DNA from: a virus
Length of the DNA: 33,133 nucleotides
Direction: 5' to 3' (one strand)
IMG/VR virus record: IMGVR_UViG_3300031673_000285
Span: 1-33,133 of that record
Shown here: one piece after another, positions 3,871-29,651 of the stretch
Layout: every line of letters starts with the position of its first letter
Numbering within the stretch: the stretch's first letter is position 1
The notes under the pieces: model-generated
Database searches by the model: none
What the model was told of the DNA's origin: nothing
What the model saw: only the letters and a program-made list of their open reading frames with translations
Translations under genes and position numbers: made by a program

Positions 3871-4806
3871 ATGAAAAAATTTAGAAAAACAGAAGATGGA
3901 CTTTTTATATGTGAAGAGTGCAATAAAACATTTGTTAAAAAATTTAGTTTAAGTAATCATTTATTTTATAGTCATAAAAATATAAGTAAAAAAGAATATT
4001 TTGATAAATGGTTAAAAGATGAAAATGATGGTAAATGTATAATATGTGGAAATGAAACAAAATTTATCAGTTTAGTTGGATATAAAACATGTTGTAGCGC
4101 ACAATGTGGTTATGATTATAATCATATACAAATAGATAAAGCAGTTTTAGAAAAATATGGAGTAAGCAATATTTCAAAAATACCGGAAATTAAAATAAAA
4201 AAAGAAAAAACCTGTTTAAAAAATCATGGAGTTAAAGCAGGATTCGCAGATGTAGAAAAAAGAAAAATAACTATTAATAAAAAATATGGATGTGATAATG
4301 TATTTCAAAATGAAGAAATTAAAGAAAAATGTAAACAAGCACATTTAAAAAACTTGGGAGTAGAGTATCCGTTACAATCTCAATTCGCTAAAGATAAATT
4401 TAAATTTACGTGTATTAAAAAATTTGGAGTTGAAAATCCTTCTCAAAATAAAGAAATTTTTGAAAAAGGACAAAAAACTAGATTAAATTTAAAACAATAT
4501 AAAAACACAAAAATTTATTATAGAGGTTCTTATGAATTTGATTTTCTTGAAAATTTTTATGATAATCATTCAGATATTCAAAATGCAAAGGGTATAAAAT
4601 ATGAATTTGAAGGTAAAAGTCGAATGTATTTTCCCGATTTTTATATTCCATCACTAAATCTTATAATAGAATGTAAAAATTCTTATTTATATGAACGTTA
4701 TAAAGAAAATATAGATATAAAAGAAAAAGCTACTATTGCTAGTGGCTTTAATTACATTATGATTTTGGATAAGAAATATGATGATCTGTATAATATTGTT
4801 CTTTAA
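3871..4806 (+). CDS. Free-standing homing endonuclease, PD-(D/E)xK type with zinc fingers
   Basis: A 311-residue product. Residues 1-40 carry a C2H2-like finger (CEEC...H...H). Residues about 55-80 hold a second Cys cluster (CIICG ... CC..QC). Then come repeats of the type KYGV.N..Q, which in phage and HNH/Vsr homing enzymes serve as DNA-binding modules. The C-terminus (about 217-300) is a nuclease domain: RGSYEFDFLE, YFPDFYIPSLN and IIECKNS give the E...PD...ExK signature. A close relative lies at 16601-17398. The gene opposes its neighbours, its 3' end overlaps the phosphatase gene by 50 nt, and it has an unusual Shine-Dalgarno-like AAGGAAAG before the ATG. All three fit recent insertion of a mobile gene. 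Confidence 0.8.
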   Translation: MKKFRKTEDGLFICEECNKTFVKKFSLSNHLFYSHKNISKKEYFDKWLKDENDGKCIICGNETKFISLVGYKTCCSAQCGYDYNHIQIDKAVLEKYGVSNISKIPEIKIKKEKTCLKNHGVKAGFADVEKRKITINKKYGCDNVFQNEEIKEKCKQAHLKNLGVEYPLQSQFAKDKFKFTCIKKFGVENPSQNKEIFEKGQKTRLNLKQYKNTKIYYRGSYEFDFLENFYDNHSDIQNAKGIKYEFEGKSRMYFPDFYIPSLNLIIECKNSYLYERYKENIDIKEKATIASGFNYIMILDKKYDDLYNIVL

Positions 4807-11538: not shown

Positions 11539-11557
11539 TTTAACAAAACTTTAACTT
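11539..11557 (+). promoter_or_regulatory. Pair of 11-bp-spaced TTTAAC direct repeats (candidate operator)
   Basis: TTTAACAA (11539) and TTTAACTT (11550) are direct repeats 11 bp apart, one helical turn. The same arrangement occurs twice upstream of the OmpR-type regulator gene and once at 30803. OmpR/PhoB proteins bind such tandem repeats. The pair lies about 34 bp upstream of the leftward promoter's -33 element and also upstream of the rightward promoter. The rest of 11558-11684 holds no gene I can see, only a short GCGCGC patch at about 11633. Confidence 0.45.
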
Positions 11558-11684
11558 AAAGTATGAAACTTATTAATTAAATGTCATATAATTAGAACTC
11601 AAAGTCTCTAGAAAAGTTATATCTCTAGTCGTGCGCGCGTATAATATATAAGGTACATATAATTTTTTATTAAAATAATTTCTT

Positions 11685-11726: not shown

Positions 11727-12491
11727 ATGACTCGTGTTTTAAACATATTAATAATTTTCTTTGGTTTATCATTTTCTTTATTTTCACAGAAAAGTGCTAT
11801 TTATAATAATAAAGGATTTCCATCTTCTTTGGGAATAACAGAATATGTTAATAATAACAGTCAATCTATTATTGAAGAATATGAACAATTAATTGATACA
11901 TTATATGACATATATATTTATGTAGAAGATTTAAGCAGTGAAAAAGAGGATATATTGGGGCAATTTTATACACCTGATAATATTATAATAACCAGTGAAG
12001 AAAAATTTACTGGGTTCGAACTTAAAGATTTAATTAAATCTAAAAAAGTAACATCATATTACACCGGGCAAACAGTTAAAGGCACTATATTTCATGAGTT
12101 AACTCATGCGTATTTCAATCAAAGTTTAATTCTAATGCAAATTGAAAAAAAATATGTATCTCCAGAGTATAATATATTTAAACTATATTCTAATTATAAT
12201 AGACAATTTAGTGTAAAATTCATAGAAGAAGGAATATGTGAATATACTGTTAATTATTTAAATGAAAGAGCTGCAATTGAGTCAATTCGAGTTCCAACAA
12301 GCATAGATTATTTATTAGATAAAGAACATATTGTTAATAACATATATCGATATTCTGTTATTTTTTTAAAAGATTTTTTAGATGAATATGGTATTAAACG
12401 AGGAATAGAAATATTACTCGGAAACAAACCTCCCAGTCTTGAAGAAATACTTAAACCAAAGTTATTTTTTGGACGTTTGAATATAAATTAA
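11727..12491 (+). CDS. Secreted zinc metalloprotease-like protein
   Basis: A 254-residue protein with a signal peptide (residues 1-20, hydrophobic core ending in SLFSQ) and a zinc protease motif, IFHELTHAYF (H123, E124, H127). The likely third ligand is a Glu in KFIEEGICEY (167 or 168), the gluzincin arrangement. Gluzincins cleave proteins in the periplasm or outside the cell. A phage could use one against surface proteins or defence factors, or during lysis; the target is unknown. It is the first rightward gene behind its own promoter, so probably made early. A tRNA-like RNA with its own promoter follows. Confidence 0.75.
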   Translation: MTRVLNILIIFFGLSFSLFSQKSAIYNNKGFPSSLGITEYVNNNSQSIIEEYEQLIDTLYDIYIYVEDLSSEKEDILGQFYTPDNIIITSEEKFTGFELKDLIKSKKVTSYYTGQTVKGTIFHELTHAYFNQSLILMQIEKKYVSPEYNIFKLYSNYNRQFSVKFIEEGICEYTVNYLNERAAIESIRVPTSIDYLLDKEHIVNNIYRYSVIFLKDFLDEYGIKRGIEILLGNKPPSLEEILKPKLFFGRLNIN

Positions 12492-15184: not shown

Positions 15185-15805
15185 ATGGAGAAAACAAAAA
15201 TCGAACAGCTATACGAAAACGAAAAATCTCAAAGTTTCGTAAACCATCTTATTCATGCATATCTTCCAGTTCATAAAGTAACAAAAATATGGGAATTTGA
15301 AAATAAAAAAATTAAACACAAATGTAGTGTATGCAGTCAAGAATTACTTGATGTTGAAACAGTATTTCAAAGAGTTCAAAAATCTCATGATTTTGCGGGA
15401 GAATTTATTGATGAAATGAGAAAAGATATTGAAGGGAAACCTACGAAATTTGAAGATCGTTTTATGGTTAAACATATTACACAAGGAGCTGTTATTGGGT
15501 GGATTGGAGAAAAAACAAATACAGAATTATGTCAATCCTGTATTCAGAATCTTTTAAATCTTGTTACCACAGGTTTATTGATGAGTGATAAAAATATTGT
15601 ATATCAAGTAAATAAAATGAAACGTGCACAAATATTTGATTCTTTTACGTCTAGTCCAGCGCTTAATTCATCAGAAATAAAGGTTGTTGAAAAAATAGAG
15701 AAAAAAATTGAAAATAGACCTAAACATGTAGCTACTTTTGGAGACCTTGAAATACTTCAAGAATTAAAGAAGAAAATGGAAAAAGAAAACAATAAAAACG
15801 ATTAA
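15185..15805 (+). CDS. Hypothetical protein with two CxxC pairs
   Basis: A 206-residue protein. KCSVCSQELLD and ELCQSCIQNLLN provide two C-x2-C knuckles about 70 residues apart, likely one zinc site. The last 50 residues are charged and helical (EKIEKKIENRPKH ... LKKKMEKENNK). No known family is recognised. It immediately precedes the regulator gene's operator and promoter. Confidence 0.6.
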   Translation: MEKTKIEQLYENEKSQSFVNHLIHAYLPVHKVTKIWEFENKKIKHKCSVCSQELLDVETVFQRVQKSHDFAGEFIDEMRKDIEGKPTKFEDRFMVKHITQGAVIGWIGEKTNTELCQSCIQNLLNLVTTGLLMSDKNIVYQVNKMKRAQIFDSFTSSPALNSSEIKVVEKIEKKIENRPKHVATFGDLEILQELKKKMEKENNKND

Positions 15806-15824
15806 AAATATAATTACTAATATC

Positions 15825-15867
15825 TTTAACAAAATTTTAACAATTAATTTTAACAAATTTTTAACAA
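15825..15867 (+). promoter_or_regulatory. Four TTTAACAA direct repeats, candidate autoregulatory operator
   Basis: TTTAACAA occurs at 15825, 15836, 15849 and 15860: two pairs with 11-bp spacing, 13 bp between pairs. The last repeat ends about 12 bp upstream of the -33 element of the regulator's own promoter. PhoB/OmpR-type proteins bind paired repeats of this spacing, so the encoded regulator at 15920 is the obvious candidate ligand (inference). Confidence 0.55.
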
Positions 15868-15878
15868 ATATTTTTATA

Positions 15879-15902
15879 TTTCAAAAATATTATTTATATT
15901 TG
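15879..15902 (+). promoter_or_regulatory. Promoter for the OmpR-type regulator
   Basis: TTTCAA is followed after the standard gap by TATATTTG (15895-15902). The predicted start lies about 12 nt before the first ATG at 15920. Confidence 0.7.
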
Positions 15903-15919
15903 TATTTTATAACACATAT

Positions 15920-16615
15920 ATGTATATGAAAATTGTAGTTAATACAGAAAATGTTGATCTATATAATACTTTTTCTCGTTTAGGAAAAGATTTAAATTAT
16001 CAGATCATTAATGCAAAAGTTGAAAGTGTACTTTTTGATACCATTGAAAAAAATAATGTTGATGCATATGTTCTTTCAATTTTTACTCCTTTTTTTAAAA
16101 GGGCTGTAGAATTTATTAAAAAGAATAATTCTTATATACCTATAACAGCAATTATTCCTCATGGAAATATTACACCCGATATTCCTGTTGATATGTATAT
16201 TGTACATGTACAAAACGAATCATTTGATGTACTGGCAAATTCAATATTTTATAATATAAATACGTATATAAAGTCTTTTGCAACTCTTAAGAAACTTACA
16301 GCAAAAATACATGATAAAATTGAGTTTGCAATGTGTGTATATGACCCTACTCGTAGACTTCTTTATCATAAAGGAAAGGAAATAAAAAGACTTTCCGCTA
16401 AAGAGGGCGGAATTCTTGAAGTACTTGCGTCAAATTATGGACAAGTGGTTAAGAAAGAAGTTATTCTCGAAAAAGTGTGGCGCAAAACAGATTACTTCAC
16501 TGGAAGATCTTGTGACGTATATATAACTTATCTTCGTAATACCTTGAAGAACAATAAAATAAAATTAACTATTAAAAATATTTCCGGAATAGGATTAATT
16601 TTAGAAAGTATCTAA
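15920..16615 (+). CDS. OmpR/PhoB-type DNA-binding regulator with degenerate receiver domain
   Basis: A 231-residue protein; an ATG two codons later (15926) is equally likely. Residues 1-120 alternate strand and helix like a response-regulator receiver. However, the phospho-acceptor position in DAYVLSIFTP is Ser53, not Asp, and the conserved N-terminal acidic pair and late Lys are not evident. Residues about 145-231 are a winged helix of the Trans_reg_C type: RLSAKEGGILEVLASNYGQ, VVKKEVILEKVW, RSCDVYITYLRNTLK, INISGIGL-like wing. It probably regulates phage genes without a kinase partner. Upstream direct repeats suggest autoregulation. Its 3' end overlaps the convergent homing endonuclease by 15 nt. 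Confidence 0.8.
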   Translation: MYMKIVVNTENVDLYNTFSRLGKDLNYQIINAKVESVLFDTIEKNNVDAYVLSIFTPFFKRAVEFIKKNNSYIPITAIIPHGNITPDIPVDMYIVHVQNESFDVLANSIFYNINTYIKSFATLKKLTAKIHDKIEFAMCVYDPTRRLLYHKGKEIKRLSAKEGGILEVLASNYGQVVKKEVILEKVWRKTDYFTGRSCDVYITYLRNTLKNNKIKLTIKNISGIGLILESI

Positions 16616-17398
16616 CTTAGAATAATCTTTATTAACAATCATAATATATTGAAAGCCATTAGCGGTAGTGGCTTTTTTCTTTTCTTCTATTTGTTCTTTA
16701 TCTTTTTCTGCGAGATATGAATTTTTACACTCAACAATCAAATTTAAAGAAGGGATATAAAAATCTGGATAATATACTTTATTTTTGTTTTTAAAATGAT
16801 ACTTAATAGAAGGACCGTTTTGAATATCAGGAAATTTATCATAAAATTTTTCTAGAAAATCAAATTCATATGAACCTCTATAAAAAAGTTCTGTATTTCT
16901 AAATTTTTTACAATTATATCCAGATATCTGAGTTTTAAAAAATGTTCTTTTAATTTGCAATGGATTTTCACAATCATAACGTAATAAAAATGTATTTTTC
17001 TTTTTAATATTTAATATATCTGATTGACCTGGATTACTTACGCCCCATTTATTTATCATAGATTGTTTTTGTTTATTATTAATGTTTTTATTTTGTAATG
17101 GATATTCTACTCCATATTTTTTAATACATTCTTCTTTTGTTCTATTATGTTTATATAAATTTTCACACTTTTTACAACACGTGCTTTTATAACCCAATTT
17201 TATATCTCGAAATATAGTTGGTTTACCACATATTTTACATTTTTCTTCATCAATATCTTTTATCCATTTATCAAAATATATTTTTACACCAGCATGAGTC
17301 ACATTAATATGCTTACTTAATCCACAACGCCTTTTTGTGATTAACCCACATTCTTCACATATAAAATTTCCGTGTGTATTTATTCTAAATTCTTTCAT
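16601..17398 (-). CDS. Second zinc-finger PD-(D/E)xK homing endonuclease
   Basis: A 265-residue relative of the product of 3871-4806. It has the same N-terminal finger (FICEECG ... LSKHINVTHAG), YFDKWIKD, a second Cys cluster (CKICGKP ... CCKKCE) and KYGVEYPLQ / KWGVSNPGQ repeats. The nuclease domain is nearly the same: FYRGSYEFDFLEKFYD, YYPDFYIPSLN, VECKNSYL. It has fewer KYG repeats than its relative, hence the shorter length. It runs against all neighbours, and its last codons overlap the regulator's 3' end. Free-standing homing endonucleases spread by cutting relatives that lack them. Confidence 0.8.
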   Translation of the reverse strand: MKEFRINTHGNFICEECGLITKRRCGLSKHINVTHAGVKIYFDKWIKDIDEEKCKICGKPTIFRDIKLGYKSTCCKKCENLYKHNRTKEECIKKYGVEYPLQNKNINNKQKQSMINKWGVSNPGQSDILNIKKKNTFLLRYDCENPLQIKRTFFKTQISGYNCKKFRNTELFYRGSYEFDFLEKFYDKFPDIQNGPSIKYHFKNKNKVYYPDFYIPSLNLIVECKNSYLAEKDKEQIEEKKKATTANGFQYIMIVNKDYSKLDTF

Positions 17399-18600: not shown

Positions 18601-18903
18601 ATGAAGCCCTTTAATGAAATGACATCAACAGAAATTAAAGCTCTGTCTAAAGAAGAATTTGACAATATATCTCCTTTTGATAAACATAGTTGTTATGATT
18701 GCATATATCTTAAAGGATTCATCAACATCTGGTGTACTAATAAAAAAGCAATCCAGTATCGTAATACAGCTATTCCAGGAGTAATAAAATGTATATTTTG
18801 GGCTCCTAATTGGGATTGGATTGAAGATAAATATAGAACGCCAGAAAATGGATATGTTTCTCCTGTAAAAAAAGTTAAAAATTTGTTAAAGAATATTTTT
18901 TAG
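18601..18903 (+). CDS. Four-cysteine zinc-binding-like protein
   Basis: A 100-residue protein with HSCYDCIYLKG, IWCTNK and IPGVIKCIFWAPN, giving the pattern C-x2-C ... C ... C-x-F-W. The same plan appears at 11251-11454, so these may be distant members of one family. The N-terminus (MTSTEIKALSKEEFDNISPF) is a helical extension. The TAG stop is directly adjacent to the promoter at 18904. Confidence 0.6.
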   Translation: MKPFNEMTSTEIKALSKEEFDNISPFDKHSCYDCIYLKGFINIWCTNKKAIQYRNTAIPGVIKCIFWAPNWDWIEDKYRTPENGYVSPVKKVKNLLKNIF

Positions 18904-28859: not shown

Positions 28860-29651
28860 ATGGATGCAACTAAATATAAATTTAATTTACAAAAATCTCC
28901 TGATGATTCTCGAGACTTTTTGCTTGAATCAATCTATCCTGACGCTGTTGTACTTCCAGAGGAATGGGATTTAAGACCTCAGATGAAACCCATTAGAGAT
29001 CAAGGTAGTCAAGGGACATGTTCAGCACAAACTGCGGCAGCAATTAAAGAATGGCAAGAATTGATCGATATTAAATTTAGTGAATATATGTCTCCACAAT
29101 TCATTTATAATTTAAGAGAAAATCAAGGATCCGAAGGAATGTATCCTAGAAACACTATGGATATTCTTCATAAAATTGGAATTGTTTCTGAAAATCATTA
29201 TCCTTATGGAACATTTACATCAATTTCATCTTATTTAAAAGAAATTGCAGTAAAACATAAAATTCAAGGATATGCGCAAGTTAATACAATTGATTCTTTA
29301 AAAAAGGCATTATTTGCAAATGGCCCATGTTATATTGCGTTTCCGGTTTATAATCCTAATAAAATGGAATTTTGGAAACCAGATTTTACAGGACAAAACA
29401 TGTTGGGTGGGCACGCAGTTTGCGTATCGGGATATCTCAAAGATAAATTTATTATACGAAATTCATGGAGTTCTCAATGGGGAGACGGAGGATACACATA
29501 TTTTCCATTTTCTCAGTGGGGTATGCACTGGGAATGTTGGACTGCTATAGATGAAAATTCAAATTCTGAAAATTTAGCTGATAAGGCTGAAAGAATGTTT
29601 TGTGCTAGAAGTTTTTTTAGAAGAATATTCGGAAAAAAAGTTAATAGATAG
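28860..29651 (+). CDS. Papain-like (C1) cysteine protease
   Basis: A 263-residue protein with the papain catalytic set: Q48 and C54 in RDQGSQGTCSAQ, H186 in GGHAVCVSGY, and N202 in IIRNSWSSQWGDGGY. The N-terminal WDLRPQMKPIRDQG is the usual start of the mature C1 domain, so there is no long propeptide. No signal peptide is visible; it acts in the cytoplasm or is carried in the virion. C1 proteases are unusual in phages but occur in large ones. It follows the ankyrin/LRR gene directly, so that protein could be an adaptor or substrate. Confidence 0.85.
   Translation: MDATKYKFNLQKSPDDSRDFLLESIYPDAVVLPEEWDLRPQMKPIRDQGSQGTCSAQTAAAIKEWQELIDIKFSEYMSPQFIYNLRENQGSEGMYPRNTMDILHKIGIVSENHYPYGTFTSISSYLKEIAVKHKIQGYAQVNTIDSLKKALFANGPCYIAFPVYNPNKMEFWKPDFTGQNMLGGHAVCVSGYLKDKFIIRNSWSSQWGDGGYTYFPFSQWGMHWECWTAIDENSNSENLADKAERMFCARSFFRRIFGKKVNR

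Follow-up and report, generated by a model that had tools for sequence, protein, structure and literature searches.

An OmpR-type phage protein that lacks a phosphorylation site is a predicted activator of a paired-repeat promoter class

A phage gene for an OmpR-type protein, preceded by four copies of a direct repeat, raises the question of what a regulator whose receiver has lost its phosphorylation site would do at those repeats, and at which other promoters it might do the same. The gene lies in a 33-kb virus fragment (IMG/VR record IMGVR_UViG_3300031673_000285, 33,133 nucleotides; hereafter the window, whose coordinates are used throughout). The original prediction, made from the sequence alone, saw in it a phosphorylation-independent phage regulator controlling itself through an 11-bp direct-repeat operator.

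The repeat TTTAACAA is present in four exact copies on the plus strand, at the starts that had been predicted: a distal pair at 15825–15832 and 15836–15843, the second half-site 11 bp past the first, and a proximal pair at 15849–15856 and 15860–15867. The measured start-to-start spacing of 11-13-11 agrees with the two 11-bp pairs that had been described. The preceding gene ends at 15805, ahead of the cluster, and the cluster is followed by TATATTTG at 15895–15902 (plus strand), a match to the -7 consensus of Bacteroidetes, TAnnTTTG (as given in PMC5682007); the TTAAC of half-site 4 ends 29 bp ahead of this box, and no -33 TTG is found upstream of it. Across the window, TTTAACAA occurs 15 times against 7.65 ± 2.95 expected, a count reached in 0 of 100 shuffles, and TTAAC pairs at 11 bp occur five times against ~0.26 expected. 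Chance A/T repeats were rejected as the source of the operator on account of the excess over shuffles, the excess of 11-bp pairs and the co-occurrence with the gene.

The regulator gene itself (229 aa) occupies 15926–16615 on the plus strand, stop included. Its start was assigned to the ATG at 15926 (MKI...) by the agreement of homologues; the further in-frame ATG at 15920, from which the gene had originally been read, was given up. Directly past the regulator, on the minus strand at 16601–17398, lies a homing-endonuclease-like gene (DUF7487, phrog_15137), and a similar-looking stretch stands behind the regulator at locus L003. By eye, the protein encoded at 3871–4806 is similar to that homing-endonuclease-like gene's product, and the one at 28860–29651 looks like a papain-like cysteine peptidase.

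Pfam finds Trans_reg_C alone in the regulator (PF00486; E 2e-14, residues 155–223 of 229), which bears out the standard winged helix claimed for it. The domain is matched in 15 of the 16 family members, the exception (L294) being cut at a contig end, and Response_reg gives no sequence match in any of the 16. The sole PHROG match, PHROG 731 (E 1e-13, residues 125–229 of the ORF from 15920), covers the DNA-binding half alone and is a family without assigned function. The receiver-like character of the N-terminal half, for which a structure prediction had been proposed as a check, was recovered in a model built from the 16 phage sequences (mean pLDDT 80.8, pTM 0.53), in which strands and helices alternate as in a receiver and which also has a long helix and a winged helix; the position of one half relative to the other is unreliable, and residues 122–128 and 188–191 are poorly modelled. 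In the model, residues 1–127 adopt a CheY-like receiver fold (pLDDT ~82–95 over most of it; Z 15–17, rmsd 2.0–2.5 Å), and residues 129–229, the winged-helix DNA-binding domain (16310–16612, plus strand), match the DNA-binding domain of SaeR (Z 15.4, rmsd 1.9 Å, 99 residues). The Foldseek matches also include full-length OmpR-type regulators such as HP1043 (2hqr) and RitR.

The pseudo-receiver domain (residues 1–125; 15926–16300, plus strand) lacks helix alpha4 in the model, and by alignment Ser51 (codon TCA, 16076–16078, plus strand) stands at the phospho-Asp position, as had been noticed. Among the 16 members this position is never Asp; it is Ser in most and otherwise Glu, Leu, His or Asn. 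Compared with aligned host regulators, the acidic pocket, the phospho-Asp, the Thr and the Lys are all gone, and the alpha4 stretch is shorter. Because the sites of a phosphorylatable receiver are lost, the protein is at most an atypical, pseudo-receiver member of the OmpR/PhoB family, and the lost phospho-site suggests that its dimer would need no phosphorylation to be active.

Sixteen loci came out of searches of viral contigs; L288 nearly duplicates L289, which leaves 15 relatives, all environmental. They include contigs of 405 kb and 323 kb, and their regulators are 41–69% identical to the window protein. A scan of genome contigs for the regulator protein returned zero relatives. Exactly one Trans_reg_C protein is encoded in each of the records G000, G001, G002, G004 and G005.

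We examined the 130 nt 5' of the regulator gene in the 15 members with upstream DNA, the window included. Of these 15, 11 have an exact TTAACN6TTAAC pair with its 11-bp period (shuffle mean 0.04, max 1), a count that takes in related sequences and is not fully independent, since some loci are near-copies (L284–L286). Allowing at most one mismatch, the pair is found in 12/15 (shuffle mean 0.76), and exact pairs at other spacings appear in 0 or 1 of the 15. The 11-bp direct-repeat operator is thus co-conserved with its gene. Occurrence of the protein in relatives without the repeats had been named as the finding that would speak against the operator: the pair is kept in the 11 members above, and a clear pair directly upstream is missing in three of 15. 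One of these three, L291 in G002, has a pair in the promoter of the preceding gene. As read from the sequences, L287 and L289 keep the window's 0-11-24-35 layout with degenerate copies, and the layout in L295 is 0-11-26-37, i.e. 11-15-11.

The regulator-bearing phages carry this pair at an entire class of promoters, and "controlling itself" therefore proved too narrow a description. The 405-kb relative holds 26 pairs at 11 bp against ~2.7 expected, and G213 holds 9 against 1.1, with other spacings near chance in both; the 11-bp spacing is the conspicuous one in G004, in G213 and in the smaller regulator-bearing records with matches. G001 has zero exact pairs but three one-mismatch composites of pair and box. 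Pairs at 11 bp fall outside ORFs of at least 100 aa in 39 of 48 cases, against 32 of 100 at other spacings (Fisher 2e-8), such ORFs making up 75% of the DNA scanned. A TATATTT or TATATAA box begins 31–33 bp past the pair at 19 of 39 sites (a set that takes in related sequences and one window site whose box belongs to an overlapping pair), compared with 0 of 106 at control spacings (Fisher 2e-13). Targets were called by fixed patterns in metagenomic records, many of them fragments, and the assignment to Bacteroidetes hosts was inferred from promoter style.

We refer to promoters with a TATATTT box as class I and to those with TATATAA as class II. In class III, CATATAA lies ~29 bp past the pair, often with a GAAACTT box and a conserved leader. 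Only two targets were placed in the window, itself a fragment. The second predicted site, TTTAACAAAACTTTAAC at 11539–11555 (plus strand), lies upstream of the gene at 11727–12491 and is a class III promoter with its -10-like CATATAA at 11585–11591 (plus strand). Pairs at 18874 (minus strand, inside an ORF) and 30803 (plus strand) were not counted, as the -7 box is missing at the right distance. The composition of the half-site also varies with the regulator: in G233 and G234, which carry the regulator clade of L296 and L298, the first half-site reads TTAACG in 6/7 class I sites, against 0/18 in the other regulator-bearing phages, and the L296 and L298 regulators group outside the other phage sequences in the tree (weak support).

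The class III leader (11585–11640 in the window; also at L045, L046, L026, L269, L273, L310 and others) has conserved CTCTAG...CTCTAGA or CCCCCGG arms, followed in several cases by a GC-rich stretch within an AT-rich genome, and is possibly a structured 5' end; for five loci, no Rfam match above the gathering score was found. In the 323-kb relative (G232), a promoter CCATATAAATATTACTTGAG, or close variants of it, is repeated, partly in tandem (L312, L318, L321, L324).

G001, G004 and G005 each have a gene similar to the one at 11727–12491 behind a promoter like its own, and the element ahead of the phrog_1818 gene is kept in G001 and G004. Genes downstream of the element in G004 and G213 encode an ssDNA-binding protein, a DNA polymerase, an RNA-binding protein, Hsp20, a glucosyltransferase and a guanylate kinase, together with proteins of unassigned function. 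In G002, a gene resembling the window's 5'-3' exonuclease sits behind one element. None of ten downstream genes scanned is a phosphate-uptake gene. An RNA polymerase beta subunit was not found in the six phages checked, so the host polymerase core is the likely partner. G004 (L335, L338) and G232 (L336, L337) each have two matches to sigma-70 region 2, one strong and one weak; these sigma-factor-like proteins of the jumbo relatives are candidate readers of the TATATAA and CATATAA promoters.

Domain make-up, phospho-site loss, the joint conservation of the gene with its operator, and the fixed repeat-to-box spacing are computed results; beyond them, we infer physical binding, dimerisation, activation over repression, and timing. 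The protein is probably a phosphorylation-independent phage activator of the promoter class, its own gene included. An atypical OmpR/PhoB-type regulator, presumably not phosphorylatable in the usual way, would bind DNA as a dimer, with one protomer on each TTTAAC half-site and the half-sites 11 bp apart. HP1043, an OmpR-family protein of H. pylori that is held to be phosphorylation-independent, binds TTTAAG-N5-TTTAAG with an 11-bp period (PMC5253667), and by analogy with this dead-receiver protein one dimer per pair is expected. HP1043/HsrA and the phage protein share an OmpR-type winged helix and a degenerate, non-phosphorylatable receiver, and the predicted phage operator is a direct repeat with the 11-bp period of the HP1043 site; unlike the phage protein, HP1043 is cellular, essential and an orphan, while on the phage side the half-site is TTTAAC, the receiver lacks alpha4 and the promoters form a phage class.

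The bound pair would adjoin the upstream edge of the core promoter, at an estimated -60 to -44 if the -7 box has its usual placement. A protein at this position would be well placed to touch sigma region 4 or the C-terminal domain of alpha, which makes activation the best reading. There the regulator would aid transcription start by the host RNA polymerase, activating its own gene, which bears two pairs, and a phage gene set rich in replication functions, as these phages' middle-gene activator. The reading as an always-on activator follows from a receiver without a switch together with many promoters that carry matching paired repeats, and the phage protein as the reader is supported by co-conservation and by the TTAACG half-site of G233 and G234. 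More tentatively, and somewhat short of probable in our judgement, large Bacteroidetes phages may have taken over a response regulator of host type, removed its phosphorylation switch and turned it into a dedicated activator of a promoter class working with host sigma-A type -7 boxes (TATATTT) and with TATATAA and CATATAA boxes maybe read by phage sigma factors, so that they would have their own reader for an element whose reading, in other phages, falls to the host.

That the element also occurs in other phages is the main ground for a different reading, in which a host OmpR-type response regulator or another host factor reads the repeats and the phage protein is a competing or replacing mimic or has another role. 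A strict search for the composite TTTAACAAAANTTTAACN29-33TATATTTG returned 57 viral stretches on diverse contigs, with no close regulator homologue in the flanks examined, and Trans_reg_C is absent from 21 of the 22 large phage contigs with the composite that were checked whole. The phage protein is therefore unneeded for keeping the element, and since the repeats also stand where the regulator gene is missing, they may be read by a host factor as well. Contigs without the regulator keep the composite, and the reversed-pattern control gave zero. The closest cellular winged helices in Flavobacteriaceae, mostly 40–45% identical, belong to regulators that we take to be RprY, and the recognition helix of these RprY-like proteins is similar to that of the phage (YFTSRSMDVYIAKLRKYL against DYFTGRSCDVYITYLRNTL); a paper on RprY gives no binding motif for it.

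Other observations make a host reader in place of the phage protein unlikely. The composite is rare in hosts (6 sites in 199 Flavobacteriaceae genomes), for which a common host promoter type was rejected, and the exact pair was found upstream of none of 30 host regulator genes checked. Arg201 of PhoB contacts bases; the equivalent position is Lys or Arg in the hosts but Tyr, His or Asn in the phages. RprY-like Bacteroidetes response regulators also differ from the phage protein in having an intact receiver (phospho-Asp, acidic pocket, Thr and Lys), and the operator goes with the phage regulator gene and varies by regulator clade. The most economical explanation is an element that does not depend on the phage protein and is readable by a host factor, with the regulator-bearing group supplying its own reader. 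No 11-bp pair was found in the first 50 kb of crAss001. In host genomes at L231, L233 and L236, a TTTAAC pair and a GTTTAGTTCGG/CCGAAC inverted repeat stand ahead of a conserved regulator-like gene; this arrangement is probably unrelated to the phage element.

In many phages without the regulator (L174–L230, L276–L283), TTTAACAAAATTTTAAC lies 29–33 bp upstream of TATATTTG, and about half of the TTTAACAAAATTTTAAC sites have a -33 TTG, at ~23 bp. This TTG was counted at 36 of 72 sites, 11 of those from one phage; regulator-bearing phages have it at 1 of 25 sites (p = 2e-5 per site, which is pseudo-replicated; p = 0.08 per phage). The shortage of -33 boxes in paired class I promoters of regulator-bearing phages speaks against another reading, in which the protein would repress its own gene (negative autoregulation) and the other promoters. 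Operators at the own gene are common among repressors, and the regulator's promoter has an extra, distal pair; the pairs, however, stop ~28–33 bp short of the -7/-10 box. They thus lie outside the core promoter, at a near-constant distance, which is a usual position for an activator, and we regard repression as improbable. UP elements sit at about -60 to -44. It is very improbable that the element is such a regulator-free, A/T-rich, 11-bp-phased site for two RNA polymerase alpha C-terminal domains, as its position and its occurrence in phages with or without the regulator would fit, since the repeat is direct and directional, each half-site carries a C, the signal is tied to the 11-bp period, the reversed pattern is near zero and the pair co-occurs with an OmpR-type gene.

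An activator of this kind invites comparison with MotA of T4, whose targets are mainly in replication, recombination and nucleotide metabolism (PMC2988021). Among the predicted phage targets, the genes for the ssDNA-binding protein, the DNA polymerase and the guanylate kinase would fit replication and nucleotide functions, and they stand beside Hsp20, a glucosyltransferase and genes of unassigned function. The likeness is one of role: both would be phage-encoded DNA-binding activators in phages that rely on the host RNA polymerase. MotA differs in being a monomer that acts with AsiA at one box, 12 bp away from the -10, whereas the phage element consists of direct-repeat pairs 31–33 bp from a -7 box and goes with an OmpR-type protein. 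No MotA entry is among the fold matches listed for the regulator, and Pfam gives Trans_reg_C. We rejected the regulator as a MotA because the pair ends 31–33 bp upstream and not ~12 bp; a similar role is possible.

Gram-positive PhoP binds TTAACA direct repeats and requires phosphorylation, and its tandem half-sites at ~11 bp resemble the phage operator. Some Firmicutes matches of a three-repeat pattern precede phosphate-uptake-like genes (by eye), and no consistent target was found among the matches in Bacteroidetes genomes. A Pho box under host control was rejected, as the pattern leads to phosphate-like genes in some Firmicutes only; unlike a Pho regulon, the phage targets scanned contain no phosphate gene.

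We found no literature on phage OmpR-type activators in Bacteroidetes and no report on gene timing in these Bacteroidetes phages. A 2025 review states that the on/off mechanisms of pseudo-receivers 'remain a mystery', and its text mentions no phage (PMC12632262). The regulator family is a compact test case for pseudo-receivers: each phage has a single regulator, the operator is readable, and predicted targets number in the dozens. That phages lacking the regulator have the element too points to a promoter part in wide use among Bacteroidetes phages, a description of which we did not find, and this part could serve expression tools.
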